Below, piece by piece: positions 5,152 through 20,804 of a stretch of 64,000 nt of DNA. The DNA is from Saprospiraceae bacterium. GTDB taxonomy: Bacteria; Bacteroidota; Bacteroidia; Chitinophagales; Saprospiraceae. The stretch is from the NCBI GenBank assembly GCA_029262995.1, contig JAJCYH010000005.1, forward strand, positions 1-64,000, in the 5' to 3' direction. How positions within the stretch are numbered: position 1 is the first letter of the stretch; each line of letters starts with the position of its first letter. The notes beneath the pieces were generated by a model, which was given only the letters and a program-made list of their open reading frames with translations, made no database searches and was not told where the DNA came from. Both the position numbers and the translations under genes were made by a program.

Positions 5152-5643
5152 ATGAATCCTATTGCTTTACTTCTATTCTTAATTATATTCTTGGGTGCGG
5201 GGCCTAGAGAAACATTAGAGCATTTTTTAAAGGCTAAAATAGTATCGGATTATAAAACTGTATACGAATTGCTGTTTGAAGAGAGCAGGGAAGGAAAGAC
5301 TTTGAACGAATTTCTTAGTACAAGAGATGAAGGTATGTTAATCTTTAGCTCTATGATGAAAAGGGCTGATTTTGAAATCGCAGAGTTTGTTGAAAATGGT
5401 GATAAGGCATCTGCGATTGTTAGAATTACACTACCGGATTTAATTAATATGGATAAGATTACCAACGAACTAATGCCTCTTTTTATGCCTTCTTTGGATA
5501 GAGAGAAAATATTAGATATTAATTTTGATTCTATTATAAGTATTCATTACCCAAATAATATTTATCCAACATTGACTAAGACTGATACAATGTATATGAT
5601 TACAGAAAACGATATATGGAAAATTGAGTTATTGAAAAAATAG
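5152..5643 (+). CDS. Hypothetical secreted protein
   Basis: 163 aa with N-terminal hydrophobic signal (MNPIALLLFLIIFLGAGP). Confidence 0.6.
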   Translation: MNPIALLLFLIIFLGAGPRETLEHFLKAKIVSDYKTVYELLFEESREGKTLNEFLSTRDEGMLIFSSMMKRADFEIAEFVENGDKASAIVRITLPDLINMDKITNELMPLFMPSLDREKILDINFDSIISIHYPNNIYPTLTKTDTMYMITENDIWKIELLKK

Positions 5644-5703: not shown

Positions 5704-5738
5704 AAACTCCTTTCTAAGGAGTTTTGCATTTATTTTTT
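5704..5738. terminator. Bidirectional terminator hairpin between convergent genes
   Basis: Perfect 9-bp stem AAACTCCTT-tct-AAGGAGTTT between stops at 5643 (+) and 5744 (-). Confidence 0.75.
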
Positions 5739-5743
5739 ATTAA

Positions 5744-7009
5744 TTACAACTCCGGCGCCTTCCACTTCATATCCGCCACAGATAAGGCCTGAGATTTTGC
5801 TATCGCTTTGCCTGCTCTTTTTTTATCTGCGATCATTGCAAAAGTCATAATCAGACTTGTTCCAATAATAACAAATAACAAGATGCCTTCCGAAAAAGCA
5901 GGAATATTAGCTTTTGCAGGTATAGCATTAAACAATAAAACTGTAATTAAACCCCTAGGCGCAATGAACAATTGAGGCGTTATATCACTACCAATAGACA
6001 CTCTAAGTATGATAAAACGAATAACGTAGATCACTATTAAACACAAGGCTGAGACACCAACGACACTCCAGCTGAGTAATGATGAAAATACAATGGTAAT
6101 ACCAAAGATGACAAAGAAAAATGTACGGACAACAAATGCTGTCTCCAGAGTCACCACATGCAAACCGTGATATATTTCATTCGCCTTTACTTTGTCTAAC
6201 CATTTCTTAAGTGGTCCCTGGAAAAATAAATCCATATTAGCGATCACCAAGCCAAAAATCAATATGATAATCAGGGATGACAAGTGCATCAATTTGCCCA
6301 AGCTATATAAAAGCAGTAATACCGAAAGGAGAAGAAATTGTTTGGCATCACTTTTTACTTTCTGAAATATTAAAATGACGACATAACTAAAGATTAGTGA
6401 TAATACAATAGTTAATAATGTAGTCAAACCAAAGCCTAGCAATCCACCACTATGATCAACACCGTCGGCACTAGGAAGTTTGTTGGCTAGAAAGTAAAAC
6501 ACCATAATTCCTAAGATGTCGGAAAACGTACTTTCATAGATGTGGAATTCTTTTTTATCTCCTCTAAGGTGGGAAACACTAGGAATGATAATAGCACTTG
6601 AAAGGATAGATAGTGGGGTCGCATAAAGCCATGCATGTAAAGCATCCATTCCTTCTATGAAAAATTGTAATATCTCAGCAGTTATCCAAATCGATAACAT
6701 TAATCCTACTAAAGCAATGGCAAAAGATATTGTTATTGGTGCTATTTTATCTCTTGTTAATTTGAGTTCTAACGCCGCCTCCAATACGATCATTATCAAA
6801 CCTACGATACCAAGTATTTCCAGGATGGAAGAATAATCTATATTAGGTACACCTAAAGCTTGAAGTCCTAGATTGACGAAAACCCCTGTAATAATAAGCA
6901 TCAGAACGGAAGGTATACTTGTTTTTTTGGAAATTTCTCCAAAGAAAAAAGAGAGGATCAATATGACGGATGAACCTATAATGATTGCATATGGTGATGA
7001 AAAATCCAT
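5744..7009 (-). CDS. CPA-type cation:proton antiporter
   Basis: 421 aa polytopic; SIPSVLMLIITGVFVNL, GLIMIVLEAALELKL, SPLSILSSAIIIPSV-like and PRGLITVLLFNAIPA motifs; no TrkA-C domain. Confidence 0.85.
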   Translation of the reverse strand: MDFSSPYAIIIGSSVILILSFFFGEISKKTSIPSVLMLIITGVFVNLGLQALGVPNIDYSSILEILGIVGLIMIVLEAALELKLTRDKIAPITISFAIALVGLMLSIWITAEILQFFIEGMDALHAWLYATPLSILSSAIIIPSVSHLRGDKKEFHIYESTFSDILGIMVFYFLANKLPSADGVDHSGGLLGFGLTTLLTIVLSLIFSYVVILIFQKVKSDAKQFLLLSVLLLLYSLGKLMHLSSLIIILIFGLVIANMDLFFQGPLKKWLDKVKANEIYHGLHVVTLETAFVVRTFFFVIFGITIVFSSLLSWSVVGVSALCLIVIYVIRFIILRVSIGSDITPQLFIAPRGLITVLLFNAIPAKANIPAFSEGILLFVIIGTSLIMTFAMIADKKRAGKAIAKSQALSVADMKWKAPEL

Positions 7010-7011
7010 AG

Positions 7012-7560
7012 TTAGTTTTTATCTTTTATATAAATGACTTGAAATCCAGCCTTGGTTAAATATTGCCTTAGGCTTGATAAATAATTGTTTGAGGATAACT
7101 CCAGCGATACACGATACTCTATTCCATCAAACTCTATATTAGGTGAAGAACTAATTACGATGTAAGGTGCACTAAAAATACATTTACTCAATTTATTCCG
7201 AGCCTCACGCACTGAATCTTCTCCATTGGGCTTGCATAGGATGTTAATTATATTTAGTGAACTGGAATCATTATTATTTAGAATAATATTCTTTGTATCA
7301 CCTTTTTTGGACTTTATTATGAAAACATATAATAAAGCCAATGTGGCTATAATAATTCCATGAGTAACAGGATGCACAAGTTCGAAAGCAATGACTGAAA
7401 TTATTATTTGTAGTGGCACAATGTATTTTGGCAACCATGGCGTATACGTTCTTATTAAGTTGTTTCCCCAATTAGTACGCTTGTAAAATATTAGTACCAG
7501 CGCTTCTATAACTATGATTATCCAGAAAGTAGTCCAAGAAATTGTATACAGATCAATCAT
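7012..7560 (-). CDS. Small membrane protein with C-terminal soluble domain
   Basis: 182 aa; N-terminal TM helices, soluble C-terminus; 2 bp from the antiporter gene and 4 bp from the ATPase gene. Confidence 0.65.
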   Translation of the reverse strand: MIDLYTISWTTFWIIIVIEALVLIFYKRTNWGNNLIRTYTPWLPKYIVPLQIIISVIAFELVHPVTHGIIIATLALLYVFIIKSKKGDTKNIILNNNDSSSLNIINILCKPNGEDSVREARNKLSKCIFSAPYIVISSSPNIEFDGIEYRVSLELSSNNYLSSLRQYLTKAGFQVIYIKDKN

Positions 7561-7564
7561 TTTA

Positions 7565-9847
7565 TTAGTTATTTAGAATTGAATTATCATTAAGAATATC
7601 TGATATTAAATGCCTTAGGTAAGGATTGATAGTTACATACCCTTCTTTAAGTACCATAACAATCTTTTGTTTAGCAAGGTAGTCTATTTCGGCTTTTGTA
7701 TTTTCTATTTCAACTTCATCAAAAATATTTTTTAAACTTGGAAAATGTTGTTTATCGTACATGATTAGATGATTAAGCATAGTTTGATTATCCAAGACTC
7801 TATCACTAAATTCTTTTGAATTTTTTACAAGGTTGAAATTACTTTCTTCCATGCACCACAATTGCATGGCGAATCCTATGTTACCTTTACTAATATTGGC
7901 AATTGACCGCGATTTTTGACGCATTTCACTAGAATTAAATTCTATCTCATCGTGATCAGCTACAGCATGTGCTCTCATTAAAAGAGCTTCTTCTATCTTT
8001 TCTACTGCCATGTTGTCTGTACGAATGATTTCTGTAAAAATCTTATCTAGATCAAACAAGCATCTTAATCTGTTTTCTAATTTTTGCGTAAAGCTTAAAG
8101 CAAAATAGATATTCTGATTATTTCTTTGCACCAAGGGTAGAAGAGTATTCATCAAATCAAACAATTCTTCTGACGAATGGGAATAATGACTTAAATCATC
8201 AATTGTGAGTATACAAAAGTCATTGCTTTTGTTCTTGATTACATGTTTTATTACAGCAATAAGATTATTATCGACATGTATTTTATTGCCATTGATGTCT
8301 AGTGATTGTCCTTGAACAATATGATAGCTGATAACACTGGATTGGATGAGTGGAATTAATTCAATTAAAGCGGACTTACCACTGCCATATGAGCCACTTA
8401 TCAAAAGTGACCCTCCAAATCCAGATTGCCAAAGCTTAAAATGATTCTCAATTTTTTCTATAAGTATTGGTCTCCTGACAAAAAATGAAGATCCTAAAAA
8501 TCCTTTTCTCATAAACAATGAATTGCTATCACTGTCTGGATTAAAGCCAAGTACACCGTTAATATATTCTGATAAGCTTGTTTTATTTGTTAGATAATTT
8601 TTGGTAAAAATCCTATTCTTTAAACGCTGAAGAAATTGCTTTATAGCATTAATTTCATATCTCTGCTCGAGAGTAGGCATATAGCTAATACCACTGGTTA
8701 ACTGTCCTATTTTTGATATTGGCAGAAAGGAATAATTATCATTAAATAGTTGAGAAACATTTATATAACGGTACAGGTTTTGCAGAATTTCATCTAATGG
8801 TTCAAAGATTTCTTTTCTTATCTGTTGCTCATAGTCCAACATTAACTTGGCTAATGATTTCCTCAATTCGTTAGGTGAAAATGAAATGGTATTTCCATCC
8901 CTAGTTTCGACTTTAGCCTTTAGTCTATTGGATAGTTGCAACAAGACAACATTTACTTTCTCTAAAAAGATTACAACTTTACGATCAATTGATCTTAGTG
9001 GACTAGTGAGGTTAAAAGAAGACCATGTAGATACTTCGGATAAAATATCTATATTTTTATATTGAAATCTACCACCAAGTGTCACGAATGGTAATGAAAG
9101 TCTATCTGTGTCTTCCAGGACTATATTTTCATAAGATGAAAAGCTAGGCCTCTCTTCAATTGCTTCTAAGGCAGCATCTATATCTGAGGTAAGTTTGACT
9201 ACTTCTGATTTAGGGATTTCAGAACCTAAAGATTGAATCTGCGTATGTATATTTGATAATATATCAAAATTGTATGTTAAGGCCTGTTGCCTTTGTGAAA
9301 TTGCTTCTTTATAGGCGAGGTTAAAGGCTTTAAAAGATTTATTTATATCATCGATTTTGTGTTCACTCCTTTGAATCCTCTTTATTTGATCTTCTAGAGT
9401 ATTAAGTTGATTTAAGACAACGTGTACTGGGTTGGTTTCATGTATCCACTCTTGTTGTTCGGACCGTTTACCTTCAATAATTTCCTTGAAGTTAATGTCT
9501 AATTCATTTGTTGCTTTAGTAATAGTTGAACAAATTTTTTGTTTGTAGTCATTCGCTTCTTGCTCTGTTTTATTGTTGTGTAGTAGATATTTTAGTTTGA
9601 ACAAATTAAGTGTACAATCTCTGAGCAAGATAGACACTTGCTTGGCTTCGTCCGCCCACGAATAAGAGATAACTATGGCAGAGTCAGGAGGAAGTTTATT
9701 CAAGTTTTGTGATAGGACCTCCTGTATTTTTTCAATATAAAACAGAGACTTGACGGCAAGTATAGGCGCAGAGACAGATTCTGCTTTTACATCAATTGTA
9801 AAGGAGGGTAATGGTTCCGTCATAATTGTATGATTTGTTTTGTTCAT
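7565..9847 (-). CDS. P-loop ATPase with long N-terminal helical/coiled-coil region
   Basis: Walker A LLISGSYGSGKSALIEL, Walker B-like FCILTIDDLSH, ISKGNIGFAMQLWCMEES sensor-like segment; N-terminal ~400 aa helical. Confidence 0.75.
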   Translation of the reverse strand: MNKTNHTIMTEPLPSFTIDVKAESVSAPILAVKSLFYIEKIQEVLSQNLNKLPPDSAIVISYSWADEAKQVSILLRDCTLNLFKLKYLLHNNKTEQEANDYKQKICSTITKATNELDINFKEIIEGKRSEQQEWIHETNPVHVVLNQLNTLEDQIKRIQRSEHKIDDINKSFKAFNLAYKEAISQRQQALTYNFDILSNIHTQIQSLGSEIPKSEVVKLTSDIDAALEAIEERPSFSSYENIVLEDTDRLSLPFVTLGGRFQYKNIDILSEVSTWSSFNLTSPLRSIDRKVVIFLEKVNVVLLQLSNRLKAKVETRDGNTISFSPNELRKSLAKLMLDYEQQIRKEIFEPLDEILQNLYRYINVSQLFNDNYSFLPISKIGQLTSGISYMPTLEQRYEINAIKQFLQRLKNRIFTKNYLTNKTSLSEYINGVLGFNPDSDSNSLFMRKGFLGSSFFVRRPILIEKIENHFKLWQSGFGGSLLISGSYGSGKSALIELIPLIQSSVISYHIVQGQSLDINGNKIHVDNNLIAVIKHVIKNKSNDFCILTIDDLSHYSHSSEELFDLMNTLLPLVQRNNQNIYFALSFTQKLENRLRCLFDLDKIFTEIIRTDNMAVEKIEEALLMRAHAVADHDEIEFNSSEMRQKSRSIANISKGNIGFAMQLWCMEESNFNLVKNSKEFSDRVLDNQTMLNHLIMYDKQHFPSLKNIFDEVEIENTKAEIDYLAKQKIVMVLKEGYVTINPYLRHLISDILNDNSILNN

Positions 9848-10461: not shown

Positions 10462-13400
10462 ATGTCGTTGAGATCATTTACAATTCCAGCCATTACAGTG
10501 GCTCTTTTATTTTCCTTTAATTTTTTGACTGCAGAAGCTTCTCTTCTGTTAAAAGAAGAAGAGCCTACCATCCATGTGGACTTCAATGAATGTGTATCAT
10601 ATTTTGGTGGATATAATGAAGATTATTCAGAATTTACTGGAGATGTGACTGAGAATCCTGATTGTAGTTTGATGCAATTGGTTGGTGGATTTGTTTATCG
10701 CAGAAATGCTTCAGTGAATACACACTCCTGCACACCTGGTCTGAATTCTCTAGCCATGTGTATTAGCAGCTTGGATTCTTGCAATTATTCTGTAGATAAT
10801 GATAGAGCTCTTAGGTTTGATGTATTAATTTTGCCTGGCTCTACTGGATTTGGCTCAATCAGTGATATTAAGTTTCTATCACAAGCGCCTGAAATGTTCA
10901 GTTTTGTTGATGGAGAAACTGGTGCAAATAATTATCCGACTAAAATGGCACTAAGGGTTTTAGCCAATGGGATAGAAATATATAGAGAGATAGATATAGA
11001 GACATCACGTAACTGGGAAATGAGTGAATTTGATTTCACCAGTGTTCCTGGATTTAGCGTAGCAGTACCAACTCTTTTTTCCTTTGAAATTTTGCCTTAT
11101 TGCCTGATTGGTATAGAATCAGATATGATGGCTTGGGATATTGATGAGTTAACAATAACAGGAGGATGTAATGATCTGAATGGTGGATTGATAAGTGTGA
11201 ATGAGTCTTCTGAGATTTGCTACCCCGATTCTTTGGAAGGGCATAGGTCCTTTAATTTGGAACTGGTAATTGGTTCGACATTTTCGTGGTTTATTCTAAA
11301 TCAGGCTGAAGAGATAGTAGCTTTATCAGATACAAGTGTTTTTGATTTTAATTCTTTGGAAAATGGAATATATACAGTTTATCATATTTCCTATGATACA
11401 ACAGACTTTTCTGGCCTTTTGGTAGGCGGAGTTTTAGAAGATATTGAGGGTTGTTTTGACCTTTCTAATAGTATTGAAATAGCGAACAATAAGCTTGAGG
11501 CAGGAGAATTAAGCAGCGACGAGTCACAAATTGTATTTATATGTAGTGATGATACTCTAAACAACACAATTGTATTAGAGTTAGATGGCTCAACAGCATT
11601 GATAACTGAATACTTGCTGATTGATACAACAGGTAATATTTTAGTAAACACTACTGTAGCCACTATAGATTTGTCTTCATTTTCTGAGGGCAGTTATCAG
11701 ATTATAGCTGTTGGTCATAATGGATCTTTAAGTAATTCCAGTGAAGGAAACTTATTAAGCAGTCTAGAAGGGTGTTTTGTACTTTCCAATGTAATTGATA
11801 TTGAAAAAATGAGGATCAGCGCTGGTCAAATTTCATTTGATGGAGATGACAATTTTCAAGCATGTACAACCAGCAGTTTTGAATTAAACCCAACTTTAGT
11901 TGATTCGATAGGAGGAACTTCACAGTGGGTTTTATATACACCTAACGGAATGATCGTAGGAATTTTTGATGATACACCCATCGACGTAGGAATGATGTTG
12001 TTTCCAACCTTAAGATTGGTTCACCTTAGTTATCTAGGAGTCATCGAAGGGCTTGAATTAGGAGAAAACATAAATGATCTAGAAGGATGTTTTGACGTCT
12101 CAAATGTATTGATAGTTGATATTCCAACTGTAGAAGGCGGAGTTATAAGTTCTAACGGTCTTGACAGTTTAAATATATGTGTAAATGATCCTATAGAATC
12201 AATGGTAGAAGTACTCGTTGAAGGTATTTCTGGAACGGCATCTTCATTAATTGTTACAGATGAAAATGGATTGATACTTGGAATTCCAAGTGACAATATC
12301 ATTGACTTTAGCAATGCTGGAACTGGTATTTGTTTTATATGGAATATCTCTTTTGTAAATGTTTTACAAGGCTTTTCTATTGGACAAAATATTGAGGATA
12401 TAGTTGGTTGCTATGATCTGTCTAACTCGATTGAAGTTAATAGAATAGAGTTACAGTCTGCTGAACTTTCGCTTGAATCTGGTGAAACAGAAATTGAAAT
12501 TTGTTCTGGAGATGGAGAAAGTGACAGTTTGATATTCAACGCAATAAACTTTAGTGGTCCTTTTAGCAGCTTGGTTGTAACAGACAACTTAGGAAATATT
12601 TTGGCTATCCCTGATTCAGATATAATTGATTTTGAGGGTGTACCTGATGGGCTGTGTCTTGTTTACCATCTGGTATCCTCTAATGACAGTATTTTAAGTA
12701 ATCAGCAGAGCAGTTTAGATAGTATAGTAGGATGTTATGAGCTTTCCAATGCAGTTACAGTTATTCGTCACCAAGTAATAGGTGGTAACCTGATGACAAC
12801 AGATAGCCTAACAGAAGTTTCTATTGTCATCGGTGATAATGTATCAGATGAAGTGGATGTGATACTAAATGATGCATTTGGAGAGCAAATGTCATGGATA
12901 ATTACAGACACCCTTGGTGAGATATTGTCTATTCCTAGTGACCCTCCATTTGATTTTTCAACAGCTGGTGCAGGCGTTTGTAATATATACAATATAAGTT
13001 ATTATGGAATACTTACTGGATTGGACGTGGGATCAAATGTCAATGATATTGTTGGTTGTTATGATCTTTCAAACGCTATTATAGTTAACAGAATAATGTT
13101 GAATGGTGGGGTTATCGTTTTTGATAACGGTAGAGACACAGTTGCCATTTGTACAGGAGACCCTATAGTTGACAGTCTGAATGTAACATTGACTGATTTT
13201 GAAGGTCCATTATCTTCCTGGATAATTACAGATATAAGTGGTCTTATTCTTGAATTGCCATTAGGTCCTCCGTTTGCATTTGAAAATGCACCAACCGGAA
13301 TATGTCAGATTTGGCACATCAGTTATACAATGGACCTTGATGGCCTTGAAGTTGGACTTAATGTCAACGAACTGGATGGGGCTTTTAATTTATCTAATGT

Positions 13401-16400
13401 ACTGGTAGTTGAAAGAACACATGTTGATGGAGGAGACATTATGACAGTTGATTCTATGACCGTGGTTTCGCTTTGTACAGGAGATGGTATAGCTGATATA
13501 GTAAGTGCTTTTGTTGAAGGAGAAGAAGGAGATAGTTCGGCTTGGATTATTACGGATGCAAGTGATGTTATCCTTGCCTTACCAGATTCACTTACAGTTG
13601 ATTTTGATGGTGCAGGTGCAGGAACTTGTTTTATTTATCATATTTCATTTTACGATAATCTTACGGCTTTAGCTATAGATAGTTCATTGAATGATTTGAT
13701 TGGTTGTTATGATTTATCGAATGCCATAACCGTAATAAGAACGGAAGTTGATGGAGGTATCATATCAGAAGCATCTGGTTTGGATACGATAAATATTGTT
13801 GTCGGCGAAGGCGTAGTTGACTCATTAGAATTTTCTGTGATTGATGCAATGGGAGATTCTTTAGTGTGGGTTATTACAGATACAACAGGTATGATATTAA
13901 GTATTAGTTCTAATCCTCCAGTGGATTTTGAATCTGCAGGTGAAGGCGTATGTTTGGTATACCATTTAAGTTATGGTGCTGGTATACAAGGCTTAATTAT
14001 TGGGAATAATCTAAATGATATTATAGGTTGTTTTGATCTTTCAAATTCAATAACCGTAATAAGAACGGAAGTTAATGGAGGTGTAATTTCGAGTATTGAT
14101 TCCTTGGTACTCATCGATCTTTGTATTCAGGAAATGAATTCTGATTCTATTGATGTGCTTTTAAGCGATGAAAAGGGGACTGAATTTCAATGGATAATTA
14201 CAGATGATTTGGGTGTAATTCTGGCTTTGCCAGTTTCTCCGCCGTTTGATTTTTCGAATGCTCCAACAGGCACTTGTCAAATTTGGCATTTGGCTTCATT
14301 GGGCAGTGTTACTGGGTTGACAGTAGGAGAAAATATTGCAGATATTACAGGAGTTTTTGATTTTTCTAATCCAATTGAGGTTGTTAGACAACAAGTAGAT
14401 GGAGGGCTGATAAGTCATAACTCTGGTTTGGATACTTTGATGTTGATAACGAATGACGGTATTGCTGATTCAATTGATTTAAATTTGGTAAATGCTGTTG
14501 GTGATTCAACGCATTGGATAATTACAGATGAACAAGGATTAATTTTGGCATTACCTGATACCTTGCCTTTTGACTTTGAAGGCTCTGCTCCAGGTATTTG
14601 TTTGATGTGGAATATTTCTTTTAATGAGATACCTGAAGGCTTAGAAATTGATTCTTCGGCATTTGATCTAGGAGGCTGTTTTGATCTTTCCAATGCAATT
14701 ACAATTATAAGAGATCACATACAAGGTGGTAATCTTATTACGGTTGATAGTCTTACATCTGTAAATGTTTGTTTGAATGACACAATTATAGATTTGATCG
14801 ATGTCATTGTAACGGATACATTTGGGATGAACTTTGGATGGGTGATTACGGACACTTCGGGCTTAATACTTAATTTGCCGATATCCCCTCCATTTGATTT
14901 TTCTAGTGCTGGAGCAGGAATATGTCAGATATGGCATTTGAGTTATCAAGATAACCTTATGGGTCTTGTAGAAGGAAATAATGTTAGTGATCTAACGGGT
15001 TCTTTTGATTTTTCTAATCCAGTTGAAGTAATAAGAGATTCACTAGCGGGAGGAAGTTTAACTTTACTTGATGGTACAACCAGTGATACCATAATATTAG
15101 GTGATGGAAATATTGACACTTTAGAAGTTGTATTGAATATTGCTATAGGAGCAAACTTAATTTATGTGGTTACAGATACTCTAGGGGAAATTCTTGACAC
15201 TACATCAAACAGTAGTTTTACTTTCGAAAATGCAGGTGGAGGCGTCTGTCAGATATGGAATCTTAGCTACGCAAATGGGTTATCTGGTCTAGAGATTTCT
15301 AACAATGTATCTCAACTTAGTGGTTGTTTTGATCTTTCCAATCCAGTAACGATAACGAGAGTAGGTCTTATGGGAGGTGAATTGATGACTACAGATAGCT
15401 TGGTCTTTATTCAGATATGCGTTAGTGATACGTTATCAGATGTATTTGATGTTATACTTTCAGATACAGTTGGACCGATTCAGTCATGGGTTGTTACTGA
15501 TGCTATGGGAATTATTTTGGATCTTCCAGCAAATCAACCATTTGACTTGAGTTCTCAATCAGTGGCGACATGTTTCTTATGGAACCTAAGTCATGATATG
15601 GATATTACGGGTTTAGAAATTGGTCTAAGTGTAGATTCATTGGTTGGCAACTATAATTTTTCTAACGCGATTACAGTAGATAAAGCTTCAAGTACTGCCA
15701 GTTCCATAATGACAACAGACAGCTTGACGGCTGTTTCAATTACAGTTGGTGAAGGCATTGTTGATCTAATCAATGCAATTTCAGCTGGAGGAGATGGAGA
15801 TAGTTCGGTTTGGGTAATTACTGACCCTATGGGAACAATCCTTGTGGTTCAGGATACTGCTTCATTTGATTTTGAATCATCTGGAGGAGGCACATGTTTG
15901 ATTTGGGAAATTAATTTTGAGTTTGGAATATCAGGATTATCTGTTGGAGCTAATATAAATAACTTACAAGGATGTTTTTCTATTTCAAATTCTATAGAAG
16001 TAATGAGAATTCCTACCCCATTAAATGGAGGTGTTTTAACGACCTCTGATTTTTTGATTGCTATTGAAATTTGCGTCGGCAATGGATTAACTGAGGAAAT
16101 AGATGTTGTATTAAATTTCAATCAAGGACCTAATTTTCAATGGGTAATAACGGATACGACGGGATTGATATTAGGCTTACCTGCTGCACCACCTTTTGAT
16201 TTAAGTTTGGCAGGTCCAGGACTATGTCAGATTTGGAATTTGAGTTATGCCAATGGTCTTACGGGATTAAGTGTTGGATTAAACATCAATGGATTGCAAG
16301 GTTTCTTTGATTTTTCAAATGCAATAAGCGTGACACGAAATGCAGCTGATGGTGGAGAAATAGAAACTACTGGCGGAATGACAGAAATTACAATTCCAGT

Positions 16401-18885
16401 TGGAGAAGGGGTAATTGATTCAGTAGATATCGTTCTTACCGGTGAAGAAGGTGATACACAAATGTGGATTGTCACAGATACTAATAATGTAATCATCAAT
16501 TTGAATGCAACATCACCATTTACATTTGAAAATAATGGAGGAGGCGCATGCCTTATTTGGAATTTAGCATCTACAGGTGCTGTTAGTGGATTAATGCTTG
16601 GAAATAATTTGTCAGAATTGGAAGGCTGTTTTGATCTTTCCAATGCAGTTACAGTAACTAAAGACGGTCCAAATGGTGGAATATTAAGTGATATCAACGG
16701 AAATAGTTCTGTTGAATTCTGTAATACAGATTCATTTAGTGACAGTCTTGAGGTAGTTCTAACAGGAACGATAGGCTCCATGAATCAGTGGATAATCGTC
16801 GATTCTTCAGGCGTAATTATAAGCCTTCCTGTGCAGGATCCATTTGATCTATCAGCATTGTCATTAGGAACATGTTACTTGTATAATATGGCTTTTGATT
16901 CTGCACCAACAGGAATTTCCTTAGGAGATACACTTGCAAATGCCATGGGAACTTATCATGTTTCCAATGCTCTTGAAATCTTTAAAGTAGAGACTTTTGG
17001 TGGTTCATTGACATTTGAAGATGGTTCATTGATAGATACGATAATGGTTGGTGAAGGAATAATTGATACTGTTGAAGTTACTCTTACTGGACAAGTAGGA
17101 GAAATTAATCAGTGGGTTGTTACTGACACCTTTGGGGTAATATTGGATTTACCAATTTCTGATCCATTTGATTTTGAATCTGCTGGTGGAGGCGTTTGCT
17201 TGATTTGGAATTTAGCATTTCAAGTAGGTATTCAAGGCTTATCAATTGGAAATAATGTAAATCAATTGGATGGTTGTTATTCGTTTTCAAATTCTATTAT
17301 GATTGTAAGAGATGGTCTTAATGGAGGATTACTTCGATTTGATGATATGACGACTGTTAGAGAAACTTGTTTTGGTGATGGTCTTCCAGACTTAACTACG
17401 TATGTCGTTTCTGGAGCTCAGGGCTTAAATGATGAATTTTTCTTTGCACGTACAAACGGTCAATTACAATTCTTGAATGCGCCTAACCCATTTGACTTTG
17501 AATTGATTCCTGCTAATATTGATACTTTCGTAATCTATAATATTGCCTATGACACCATACCAGGTGGTTATAATCAAGGTAACTTTATTTCTAATTTAAC
17601 GGGTAATTTCTCCCTTTCAAATCCAATCTTTTTAGTCAGAGATATTCAGAGAGGTGGAAGCATACAAGATACCATGGGTTTTACATCTTCAACGATTATT
17701 GTAGCTGATGGCGTAGTGGATACCTTAACATTGGAAGTGGCTGGAACATTTGCTGATTCAATGGCATGGGTGATGACCAATGATAATGATACGATAATTG
17801 CAATTCAAAATTCAAATGAATTCATTTTTGATAGTTTAGGAACTTCAGAATGTAGAATTTATCATATTGGATTTAATCCTGACATAATTGATGGTCTTGA
17901 AATAGGAGAGTCTATTGATAGCATTACAGGCTGTTATGGAATATCCAATGTTTATATATTGACTAAAAAAGCATTAAATGGGGGTGTTCTTTCAACTACT
18001 ACAGGTGAGACTTCTATTGAAATTTGTTCAGGAGACAACAATGTAGATATTGTTAACTTGATTACAGAAGGTGAAATAGGTTCATCGTTTGTTTTCATTG
18101 TTGCCAATTTGAATGGTATTATTTTGTTGAACCAAGTTTCTTCTCAATTAGACTTGACTGGTGTGCAACCTGGAATGTGTCAAATATTTAGCATTAGTCA
18201 TGATGGTTCCTTAGGTGGAGTTGCTAATGGCGTAAATATTTCAAGTTTGACTGGTTGTTTCTTACTTTCCACACCAGTAGATGTTGTAAAGAATGCTGTA
18301 TTTGGTGGAAACTTGACATTACAGTCAGGAGGAACAGTTGAAGATGTATGCGTAGGAGATGCGATAGAGGATAATGTGATTTGGCAAACTACTAGTATGT
18401 CAGGAGAATACTTTTATGCTATTACTGACACCTTTAATGTTATCGATACAATAATTAGCAATGGTGTATTTGATTTTAACGATTCAGATGTAGGTGTTTG
18501 CAGAATTTGGGGTATATCATATGTAGGTACATTAACAGCAGAAGAAGGTGACACAGTAGGTGTAGATGTATTGGCTGAAGATTGTTTTGATATATCAAAC
18601 AATTTTATTCAAATCAATAAAAATGACTGTACAATACCAGCAGCTTTAGCTTATAAGGTTTACCCTAATCCAGTTATTGACAGATTGCGACTTGATGTAA
18701 TTAATGTGCCAAACAGTAATACGTATTGTCAGATATTTGACTCTAGTGGAAAAGTGCTTCATCAACAGAATATTGGACTTGGAGAAGTAGACATTGATAT
18801 GAGTTCGCTTATGGCTGGTGTCTATTATATACGAGTAAAATCTGGTGGTTACATCAAAACAGATAAGTTTATTGTTCTGAAATAA
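10462..18885 (+). CDS. Giant T9SS-secreted repeat protein (about 23 tandem ~105-110 aa modules)
   Basis: 2807 aa; modules of form GG...ICVGDG..D...V.L....G...WIITDT.G.IL.LP..PPFDF..AG.G.C.IW.LSY...GL..G.N...L.GCFDLSN.I.V.R; C-terminal T9SS domain VYPNPVIDRLRLDV...GVYYIRVKSGGYIKTDKFIVLK. Confidence 0.95.
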   Translation: MSLRSFTIPAITVALLFSFNFLTAEASLLLKEEEPTIHVDFNECVSYFGGYNEDYSEFTGDVTENPDCSLMQLVGGFVYRRNASVNTHSCTPGLNSLAMCISSLDSCNYSVDNDRALRFDVLILPGSTGFGSISDIKFLSQAPEMFSFVDGETGANNYPTKMALRVLANGIEIYREIDIETSRNWEMSEFDFTSVPGFSVAVPTLFSFEILPYCLIGIESDMMAWDIDELTITGGCNDLNGGLISVNESSEICYPDSLEGHRSFNLELVIGSTFSWFILNQAEEIVALSDTSVFDFNSLENGIYTVYHISYDTTDFSGLLVGGVLEDIEGCFDLSNSIEIANNKLEAGELSSDESQIVFICSDDTLNNTIVLELDGSTALITEYLLIDTTGNILVNTTVATIDLSSFSEGSYQIIAVGHNGSLSNSSEGNLLSSLEGCFVLSNVIDIEKMRISAGQISFDGDDNFQACTTSSFELNPTLVDSIGGTSQWVLYTPNGMIVGIFDDTPIDVGMMLFPTLRLVHLSYLGVIEGLELGENINDLEGCFDVSNVLIVDIPTVEGGVISSNGLDSLNICVNDPIESMVEVLVEGISGTASSLIVTDENGLILGIPSDNIIDFSNAGTGICFIWNISFVNVLQGFSIGQNIEDIVGCYDLSNSIEVNRIELQSAELSLESGETEIEICSGDGESDSLIFNAINFSGPFSSLVVTDNLGNILAIPDSDIIDFEGVPDGLCLVYHLVSSNDSILSNQQSSLDSIVGCYELSNAVTVIRHQVIGGNLMTTDSLTEVSIVIGDNVSDEVDVILNDAFGEQMSWIITDTLGEILSIPSDPPFDFSTAGAGVCNIYNISYYGILTGLDVGSNVNDIVGCYDLSNAIIVNRIMLNGGVIVFDNGRDTVAICTGDPIVDSLNVTLTDFEGPLSSWIITDISGLILELPLGPPFAFENAPTGICQIWHISYTMDLDGLEVGLNVNELDGAFNLSNVLVVERTHVDGGDIMTVDSMTVVSLCTGDGIADIVSAFVEGEEGDSSAWIITDASDVILALPDSLTVDFDGAGAGTCFIYHISFYDNLTALAIDSSLNDLIGCYDLSNAITVIRTEVDGGIISEASGLDTINIVVGEGVVDSLEFSVIDAMGDSLVWVITDTTGMILSISSNPPVDFESAGEGVCLVYHLSYGAGIQGLIIGNNLNDIIGCFDLSNSITVIRTEVNGGVISSIDSLVLIDLCIQEMNSDSIDVLLSDEKGTEFQWIITDDLGVILALPVSPPFDFSNAPTGTCQIWHLASLGSVTGLTVGENIADITGVFDFSNPIEVVRQQVDGGLISHNSGLDTLMLITNDGIADSIDLNLVNAVGDSTHWIITDEQGLILALPDTLPFDFEGSAPGICLMWNISFNEIPEGLEIDSSAFDLGGCFDLSNAITIIRDHIQGGNLITVDSLTSVNVCLNDTIIDLIDVIVTDTFGMNFGWVITDTSGLILNLPISPPFDFSSAGAGICQIWHLSYQDNLMGLVEGNNVSDLTGSFDFSNPVEVIRDSLAGGSLTLLDGTTSDTIILGDGNIDTLEVVLNIAIGANLIYVVTDTLGEILDTTSNSSFTFENAGGGVCQIWNLSYANGLSGLEISNNVSQLSGCFDLSNPVTITRVGLMGGELMTTDSLVFIQICVSDTLSDVFDVILSDTVGPIQSWVVTDAMGIILDLPANQPFDLSSQSVATCFLWNLSHDMDITGLEIGLSVDSLVGNYNFSNAITVDKASSTASSIMTTDSLTAVSITVGEGIVDLINAISAGGDGDSSVWVITDPMGTILVVQDTASFDFESSGGGTCLIWEINFEFGISGLSVGANINNLQGCFSISNSIEVMRIPTPLNGGVLTTSDFLIAIEICVGNGLTEEIDVVLNFNQGPNFQWVITDTTGLILGLPAAPPFDLSLAGPGLCQIWNLSYANGLTGLSVGLNINGLQGFFDFSNAISVTRNAADGGEIETTGGMTEITIPVGEGVIDSVDIVLTGEEGDTQMWIVTDTNNVIINLNATSPFTFENNGGGACLIWNLASTGAVSGLMLGNNLSELEGCFDLSNAVTVTKDGPNGGILSDINGNSSVEFCNTDSFSDSLEVVLTGTIGSMNQWIIVDSSGVIISLPVQDPFDLSALSLGTCYLYNMAFDSAPTGISLGDTLANAMGTYHVSNALEIFKVETFGGSLTFEDGSLIDTIMVGEGIIDTVEVTLTGQVGEINQWVVTDTFGVILDLPISDPFDFESAGGGVCLIWNLAFQVGIQGLSIGNNVNQLDGCYSFSNSIMIVRDGLNGGLLRFDDMTTVRETCFGDGLPDLTTYVVSGAQGLNDEFFFARTNGQLQFLNAPNPFDFELIPANIDTFVIYNIAYDTIPGGYNQGNFISNLTGNFSLSNPIFLVRDIQRGGSIQDTMGFTSSTIIVADGVVDTLTLEVAGTFADSMAWVMTNDNDTIIAIQNSNEFIFDSLGTSECRIYHIGFNPDIIDGLEIGESIDSITGCYGISNVYILTKKALNGGVLSTTTGETSIEICSGDNNVDIVNLITEGEIGSSFVFIVANLNGIILLNQVSSQLDLTGVQPGMCQIFSISHDGSLGGVANGVNISSLTGCFLLSTPVDVVKNAVFGGNLTLQSGGTVEDVCVGDAIEDNVIWQTTSMSGEYFYAITDTFNVIDTIISNGVFDFNDSDVGVCRIWGISYVGTLTAEEGDTVGVDVLAEDCFDISNNFIQINKNDCTIPAALAYKVYPNPVIDRLRLDVINVPNSNTYCQIFDSSGKVLHQQNIGLGEVDIDMSSLMAGVYYIRVKSGGYIKTDKFIVLK
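11160..18630 (+). repeat. Tandem protein-coding repeat array (~320-bp units)
   Basis: Repeating motifs 'ITD..G.IL', 'C.IW.LSY', 'GCFDLSN' at regular spacing in the translation. Confidence 0.9.
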
Positions 18886-19082: not shown

Positions 19083-20804
19083 TTACCAGCTGCTACCACC
19101 TCCTCCAAATCCACCACCAGCTGAACCACCGGAAAAGCTGCTTCCACTTGAGCTTCGACTACTTGCAGGGACACTTGTAAATACACTCTTTATTTCCTTG
19201 ACGGAAAAAGTTCTTGAAAATTCATTTAATGGAATCTTTCTAGAAGAATCTGAGTAATTATAGTAAGAGTACCAATGAGGTGCCGGTAAATCCAATGACT
19301 CTATATTTTTTAGCCATGTTTTGTCAATGCCTAATGCTATAGCAAAAGGATAAATTTGTTCAAAATAACTGGGATTGGATTTTAAAATTTCGTCCGTCTT
19401 TACTGGATTCATTTCTAATAGAGCCTTCTTTAATGAAACCAAATGGGATTTGAGTTTAATGCCCTTATCTGACATTTTGGGTCTAAAAAAATAGAGTATA
19501 AAAATAGTAAGACCGATTATTAATAATACAATGGCAGAAAGTTTATACGGAGAAGCAATAAATAAGACTATAGAAATGACCATTGTAATGATTCCAAAAG
19601 CTACATTTTTCCATGTATGGAATATGCGATAATGGTCCCAATCATAAAGTTGCTTCGATAACAGTGTAGATTTAATTTTCGCGGAAGCATTAGAAATAAT
19701 AGAATAGAATTTATTTTTCAATTCTGACAGCAAAACTATATCCGTGTTATTAAAGAGCCCTTCAAAAATGATATGCTGGTACTCAGGAAATTCTTTATCC
19801 AGAGCTTTAAGCTTTTTAAAATATAAATCCTGATCACTTCCTGATACATTGCTGGACATCACTTTGATAAACCCCTTTTCCGCCCAATAGGGTAATAGAG
19901 ATATTAAATCTTCAATGTTTACTTTATAATCATGGTAAGCTCCAACATCTGCTGGTGAAAATCCTTCCGGTGCGAAATACATTAATTTTGTTGTTTCTGG
20001 GATAAATTCTTTTCTGCTTTTAAAAAAGTAATTTATAAAAAGTAAAAGAAATGCAAGGGGTAATAACCAAATGCGATCAGTCTTAAAAATTGAAACTGGT
20101 GGTGGCGGACGATCTATGAAATCTTTGGGTAACTTCACATATATTGTAATGATTTCATTCTCAGCAAGAGAATTTAAGGAATGACCAACTAAACCGGTAT
20201 TTGATTTTTCAATAATACTATTCTTCTTTTGTTCGCCTTCTTGTCCAGTAACAATCTGATAATCTGTAAAAGATAATTCTGGATCTTTATAGAAGGCAAT
20301 TTCAAAGTTTACCGAATCTAATTTTGTATTCCATCCGTTAATTATATTATAGGAAAATTCGGTATGATCTTCTAGAAACAGAAATGGAGTATTTAACGTA
20401 TAGATTATGTTGTATGTTTGTATTCCTTCAACAAAAACGTTTTTGTCACCGATTTTAATGACATGATTATCATTTTTGGATTGTATAACAAAATTATAGT
20501 CTTTTACAGTAACATTTGATATGCTTATTTTACTAGTTCCATTTTCAGAATTAAAATACTTAGGAATTTCGCGCAAAATACCATGGCTAGGTACCTTATA
20601 CTTTACAGTTATTGCTTCTTGAATATCAACTGATCCATTTTGATTGATATATACTTTTACATTATAATTGTTGATTGAATAATTTTGAGCAACTATAGAA
20701 TGTTGGATCGAAAAAGCGATAACAAGTGTTAAAGGAACAGTTATCGATTTTAAACTATTACATTTGAAAAATTTGATGATAGTGAATAGTTTATTTTTTA
20801 GCAT
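19083..20804 (-). CDS. DUF2207-family predicted membrane protein
   Basis: N-terminal DUF2207-like domain (ITVKYKVPSHGILREIPKYF), TM segments, C-terminal SSSGSSFSGGSAGGGFGGGGSSW tail. Confidence 0.88.
   Translation of the reverse strand: MLKNKLFTIIKFFKCNSLKSITVPLTLVIAFSIQHSIVAQNYSINNYNVKVYINQNGSVDIQEAITVKYKVPSHGILREIPKYFNSENGTSKISISNVTVKDYNFVIQSKNDNHVIKIGDKNVFVEGIQTYNIIYTLNTPFLFLEDHTEFSYNIINGWNTKLDSVNFEIAFYKDPELSFTDYQIVTGQEGEQKKNSIIEKSNTGLVGHSLNSLAENEIITIYVKLPKDFIDRPPPPVSIFKTDRIWLLPLAFLLLFINYFFKSRKEFIPETTKLMYFAPEGFSPADVGAYHDYKVNIEDLISLLPYWAEKGFIKVMSSNVSGSDQDLYFKKLKALDKEFPEYQHIIFEGLFNNTDIVLLSELKNKFYSIISNASAKIKSTLLSKQLYDWDHYRIFHTWKNVAFGIITMVISIVLFIASPYKLSAIVLLIIGLTIFILYFFRPKMSDKGIKLKSHLVSLKKALLEMNPVKTDEILKSNPSYFEQIYPFAIALGIDKTWLKNIESLDLPAPHWYSYYNYSDSSRKIPLNEFSRTFSVKEIKSVFTSVPASSRSSSGSSFSGGSAGGGFGGGGSSW

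Follow-up and report, generated by a model that had tools for sequence, protein, structure and literature searches.

Why is the gene of a predicted AAA+ ATPase placed directly ahead of genes for a small membrane protein and a cation antiporter, and what could such a combination do? The question is raised by three genes on the minus strand of the window, meaning the whole stretch of 64,000 nucleotides of Saprospiraceae DNA that was analyzed. The ATPase gene (7565-9847, minus strand; 760 aa) is followed by the gene of the small protein (7012-7560, minus strand; 182 aa) and that of the antiporter (5744-7009, minus strand; 421 aa). The intergenic gaps are 4 and 2 bp, respectively. Hence, the three co-directional and tightly spaced open reading frames described in the first-pass annotation are found as described. 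The common terminator that it assigned to them is not established: a terminator-like hairpin is present at 5704-5724, and its T-rich tail lies on the plus strand. This orientation favors a plus-strand gene over the trio, and the hairpin most plausibly terminates the one that ends at 5643. Two further proteins encoded in the window were noted. The first (10462-18885, plus strand) has 2807 aa with many similar repeats and, at its end, a tail reminiscent of a sorting signal for type IX secretion (YKVYPNPV...). The second (19083-20804, minus strand) is a membrane protein of 573 aa, DUF2207-like by eye, with a Gly/Ser-rich C-terminal tail.

The ATPase consists of a long helical N terminus (approximately aa 27-361, minus strand) and a AAA+ core with a winged helix (approximately aa 460-755, minus strand), as seen in an AlphaFold model with a mean pLDDT of 78.9 and a pTM of 0.46. 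The core contains a Walker A motif (GSYGSGKS, aa 485-492; 8372-8395, minus strand) and a Walker B motif (FCILTIDD, aa 544-551; 8195-8218, minus strand). In an alignment of 21 ATPase sequences (A1), G485, G490, and D550 are invariant, and D551 is kept in at least 90%. Arg625, located in the helix after the core (7973-7975, minus strand), is likewise invariant in A1 and is a candidate sensor-2 residue. The motifs and the model both agree with the helical N terminus and C-terminal P-loop NTPase that had been proposed from the letters of the sequence. The best fold matches of the C terminus are Orc1/Cdc6 and RuvB (E of approximately 1e-5), herein with a poor global fit because the match is confined to the C-terminal part. 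The Pfam scores for AAA_16 (23.3 bits, cut-off 32.6) and AAA (18.6 bits, cut-off 21.2) both lie below their cut-offs. A search of the ATPase profile against PDB sequences gave chance matches to coiled coils alone, for example haemagglutinin, which were rejected. In some relatives, the Walker A lysine is replaced by arginine, which suggests that, across the family, a switch based on nucleotide binding may be more widespread than hydrolysis.

The small protein had been described as a transmembrane protein with a soluble tail. This holds for its architecture, as three membrane helices (AlphaFold helices 9-28, 43-62, and 64-86; aa 9-86, 7303-7536, minus strand) precede a C-terminal α/β domain (aa 103-180, 7021-7254, minus strand) that is seen in both alignment A2 and the AlphaFold model, but its kinship with the MscS superfamily had been missed. 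The 182-aa window protein itself has no meaningful Pfam match, including none to the MscS family PF00924, and its model gives weak fold matches to MscS. The kinship becomes visible with the family profile (A2), which matches MscS in the PDB with an E of 4.8e-6 over the membrane part and the β-domain. Furthermore, a profile–profile comparison of A2 with A5, the small proteins from a related class of loci with SLC12 fusions described below, yields an E of 3.4e-23, and at least two A5 members score above the PF00924 cut-off. At the family level, the small protein is thus classed, from these profiles, as a reduced MscS-superfamily protein. Most of its relatives have approximately 240 aa, with a stretch typical of the MscS β-domain between the membrane helices and the α/β domain. 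In the window copy, this β-domain is missing, the junction lying at approximately aa 87-102 (A2). It is also gone in two other loci (L032 and L143), in which the membrane helices and the C-terminal α/β domain are kept. Since the ATPases of these three loci form one supported clade, the β-domain appears to have been lost only once. The window protein, being devoid of the β-domain, may not form a channel. A PF00924 search of the whole host genome returned four ordinary MscS matches, the 182-aa trio gene not being among them; hence, the module is not the sole osmotic valve of its host. One of the four, a complete and ordinary MscS gene, lies shortly beyond the right-hand end of the window (G000:C5:64707-64904; PF00924, 81 bits).

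The antiporter matches Pfam Na_H_Exchanger (PF00999) over its whole membrane part with an E of 4.8e-16 (59 bits, cut-off 26.2). This is its sole Pfam match, and the protein ends at aa 421 with no RCK/TrkA_N domain, which corroborates the initial description of a cation:proton antiporter lacking TrkA. It is of the CPA type, with cation/H+ exchange as the predicted activity. An invariant ESTFSDI motif (aa 159-165; 6515-6535, minus strand; alignment A3) sits where, by our reading, CPA transporters have their ND/DD motif. A search of the antiporter profile against PDB sequences found nothing. At the C terminus, a W-x-x-P comparison revealed a trio-specific tail motif, WKAP in the window copy (W416 and P419; 5753-5764, minus strand). 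W-x-x-P is present in all 49 distinct trio antiporters and in none of seven stand-alone paralogs, which retain the SD motif. The tail may be where the ATPase or the MscS-like protein docks. The idea that antiporters of this kind always occur in trios was rejected, as the stand-alone paralogs, devoid of the tail motif, exist.

The three genes form a conserved unit. A query of genome contigs with the single protein found no relatives; an alignment-based query recovered them. Among 100 genomes of the same family, the ATPase search found relatives in 36, and a profile search found them in 40, approximately 36 of these being of the trio class. Of 54 distinct trio-class ATPase loci, 50 show the ATPase, the small protein, and the antiporter in this order, so the grouping is far beyond chance and the trio homologs do co-occur elsewhere, as the proposed check of genome neighborhoods was meant to establish. 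The four exceptions are two contig ends, one Aureispira MAG without the antiporter, and one locus without both partners. In the first 20 loci for which wider flanks were taken, every ATPase has the small membrane protein next to it and the antiporter one gene further on. Viewed from the antiporter, all 32 full-length proteins above 660 bits in the 100 family genomes lie on the same contig as an ATPase and adjoin it; the lower-scoring paralogs examined are located elsewhere. A comparison of neighbors across loci found no other gene family beside the trio that recurs to a comparable extent. In a named collection, 42 loci were found, all in Saprospirales or in records named no further than Bacteroidota (Lewinella, Aureispira, Flavilitoribacter, and Saprospiraceae MAGs). 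Within the family, the trio is patchy and absent from the one genome of the same genus that was sampled.

The three proteins evolve at different rates and are inherited together. Pairwise identity averages 28% among the ATPases, 27% among the MscS-like proteins, and 66% among the antiporters. The distances of ATPase and MscS-like protein correlate with r = 0.94, and those of either with the antiporter with r = 0.77; none of 2000 permutations reached the observed correlations, to which shared species history contributes.

A phylum-wide search with the ATPase profile uncovered two further classes of approximately 1000 and 1700 aa. In the former, the next gene encodes an MscS protein for 17 of 17 ATPases. 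These partners mostly have 270 to 370 aa, and those tested match PF00924 with an E of approximately 1e-18 to 1e-21. In most cases, the pair has no transporter gene beside it. The proteins of approximately 1700 aa combine an SLC12/AA_permease N terminus with the ATPase as the C terminus (six by Pfam, more by profile). Their loci (L125, L126, L127, L149, L151, L153, and L181-L185) encode proteins of mostly approximately 1650 to 1790 aa, the fusion being split in L184 and truncated in L185, where the contig ends. An MscS-like gene comes next in all 10 loci with downstream sequence, the eleventh being L185. SLC12 genes without the ATPase also exist as stand-alone genes. A tree of the AAA region shows three clades that correspond to the three architectures, each strongly supported, and one genome (G030) contains all three ATPase types. 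Occasionally, another transporter is encountered: at L136 and L139, a CorA Mg2+ transporter gene directly follows the ATPase–MscS pair, and at L139 two more MscS genes come after CorA. The trio as an ATPase–antiporter unit, as it was first seen, is hence conserved, but that view missed a wider ATPase family that always adjoins MscS genes and is combined with other transporters (SLC12, sometimes CorA). Across architectures, the comparison points to a constant ATPase–MscS core and a variable cation transporter.

The pair also appears to reach Alphaproteobacteria on two plasmids, linked to the forms of approximately 1000 aa. On the Novosphingobium plasmid pLA3, a gap of 2 bp separates the gene of an 'AAA family ATPase', which scores 78 bits against the profile of that class, from a mechanosensitive channel gene downstream. 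On a Caulobacter sp. NIBR2454 plasmid (L193), an ATP-binding protein, linked to the family solely via the Novosphingobium protein, precedes two mechanosensitive channel genes in a row.

The fusions bear on another possibility, an ATPase that binds DNA as a regulator of the Orc1/Cdc6 type and would control the expression of the neighboring transport genes without binding their proteins. The fold matches to Orc1/Cdc6 and RuvB and the winged helix would suit such a role. However, approximately ten relatives have the ATPase fused to a transporter of the membrane, as would suit a partner located there rather than a protein of the nucleoid; we regard a regulator of this type as very improbable. The constant core and the swappable transporters also speak for the main rival to the reading that we prefer (below), according to which the MscS-like protein is no channel and instead acts as a membrane tension sensor or scaffold that connects the ATPase to the antiporter, the sole transporter of the module. 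The window clade, which still keeps the operon after loss of the β-domain, speaks for it as well. Against it stands the class of approximately 1000 aa, with its fuller MscS protein (PF00924, E = 2.9e-19) and usually no adjoining transporter, where the channel is likely the output. For the trio, we consider a pure scaffold role rather unlikely.

An anti-phage abortive system, in which the ATPase would sense infection and make the MscS-like protein and the antiporter leak ions to lethal effect, had been suggested early on. The patchy presence of the trio, the fast evolution of its ATPase and MscS-like protein next to a conserved antiporter, and weak STAND-type Pfam matches in relatives are compatible with this. 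On the other hand, the PADLOC 2023 models gave no match to the window trio and none of note among relatives, and a phage collection contained no matches. A plasmid collection queried with the window ATPase gave none either, the plasmid matches being those to the alphaproteobacterial pair only. Defense genes do not recur among the neighbors, and one family keeps the ATPase–MscS pair in a conserved housekeeping neighborhood of uridine kinase-like, pantothenate kinase-like, and DEAD-box helicase-like genes (named by sequence inspection). Because of the missing PADLOC match of note, the lack of phage carriage, and this housekeeping neighborhood, a defense role for the trio is unlikely.

The remaining part of the early proposal, an ATPase-controlled ion-transport or volume module, is the best reading of the conserved unit. 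A cell can lose cations and relieve its turgor by CPA antiport, by K-Cl cotransport, or by MscS conduction. As the variable part of the family is a cation transporter, and as plastids offer an analogous combination of KEA and MSL proteins, we favor a cation-efflux/turgor module serving cation homeostasis, in which the ATPase controls the MscS-like protein and a swappable secondary transporter; we give this an even chance of being correct. The conserved gene order, the correlated distances, the trio-specific tail, and the SLC12 fusions, a Rosetta-stone type of evidence, speak for it, as do the MscS genes beside the ATPases of the other two classes. In this module, the AAA+ protein would be cytosolic, with the C-terminal domain of the MscS-like protein as a docking site and the W-x-x-P tail of the antiporter as a probable second one. 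Swelling or an ionic-strength signal, sensed by the membrane part of the MscS-like protein or by the helical N terminus of the ATPase, would change the nucleotide state of the ATPase. In response, the antiporter would expel K+ (or Na+) against protons, whether or not the MscS-like protein also passes ions. In the related branches, the same ATPase–MscS core would work with an SLC12-type cotransporter fused to the ATPase. The arginine at the Walker A position of some ATPases counts against the module, since hydrolysis is perhaps not general. The β-domain missing from the window copy, the four ordinary MscS matches in the host genome, and the patchy distribution of the trio weigh against it as well. 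More tentatively, and with less than even confidence, we propose a new ion-transport machine of Bacteroidota and some Alphaproteobacteria, in which an Orc1/Cdc6-like AAA+ ATPase would gate, by physical contact, an MscS-family protein together with an exchangeable secondary cation transporter (CPA or SLC12).

MscS channels are passive safety valves gated by membrane tension. If the proposal is true, some MscS-family proteins are controlled by ATP and not purely by tension. MscS-like and AAA+ proteins recur as partners in three architectures, and the transporters are interchangeable; this points to ion efflux under the control of energy or nucleotides, for which the module provides a small genetic unit amenable to testing. 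The relative devoid of the β-domain additionally raises the question of which part of the MscS fold binds the partner and which part conducts. Each part of the module belongs to a known superfamily, and their partnership looks undescribed in the open-access literature, in which no description of such a module was found; subscription papers and preprints were largely outside the scope of that search.

A close parallel in bacteria is formed by KefB/KefC and MscK (KefA) of Escherichia coli, where a CPA-family antiporter and an MscS-family channel each mediate K+ efflux and both protect the cell under stress. The Kef antiporters contain an RCK/KTN domain and employ a small ancillary protein, there is no AAA+ ATPase, and MscK is encoded separately. 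In contrast, the trio has no RCK domain, and its AAA+ ATPase is encoded together with both the antiporter and the MscS-like part. In plastids, the K+/H+ antiporters KEA1/KEA2 and the MscS-like channels MSL2/MSL3 reside in the same membrane, are both osmoregulatory, and may act together (PMC4770017). They differ from the trio in being separate genes, in the KTN domain of KEA, and in that no ATPase partner is described in PMC4770017. With Orc1/Cdc6-type AAA+ proteins and STAND NTPases, the window ATPase shares Walker A and B and a winged helix after the core, whereas its long helical N terminus has no known match and its partners are transport genes, up to the SLC12 fusion in relatives. SLC12 cation-chloride cotransporters are represented by the N terminus of the relatives of approximately 1700 aa, and the window module employs a CPA antiporter instead. 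Finally, the small proteins have the membrane part and the α/β domain in common with the MscS superfamily, and most relatives also the β-domain. They differ from it by their reduced size (approximately 240 aa, and 182 to 187 aa in the window clade, where the β-domain is lost) and by the ATPase that is their constant neighbor.
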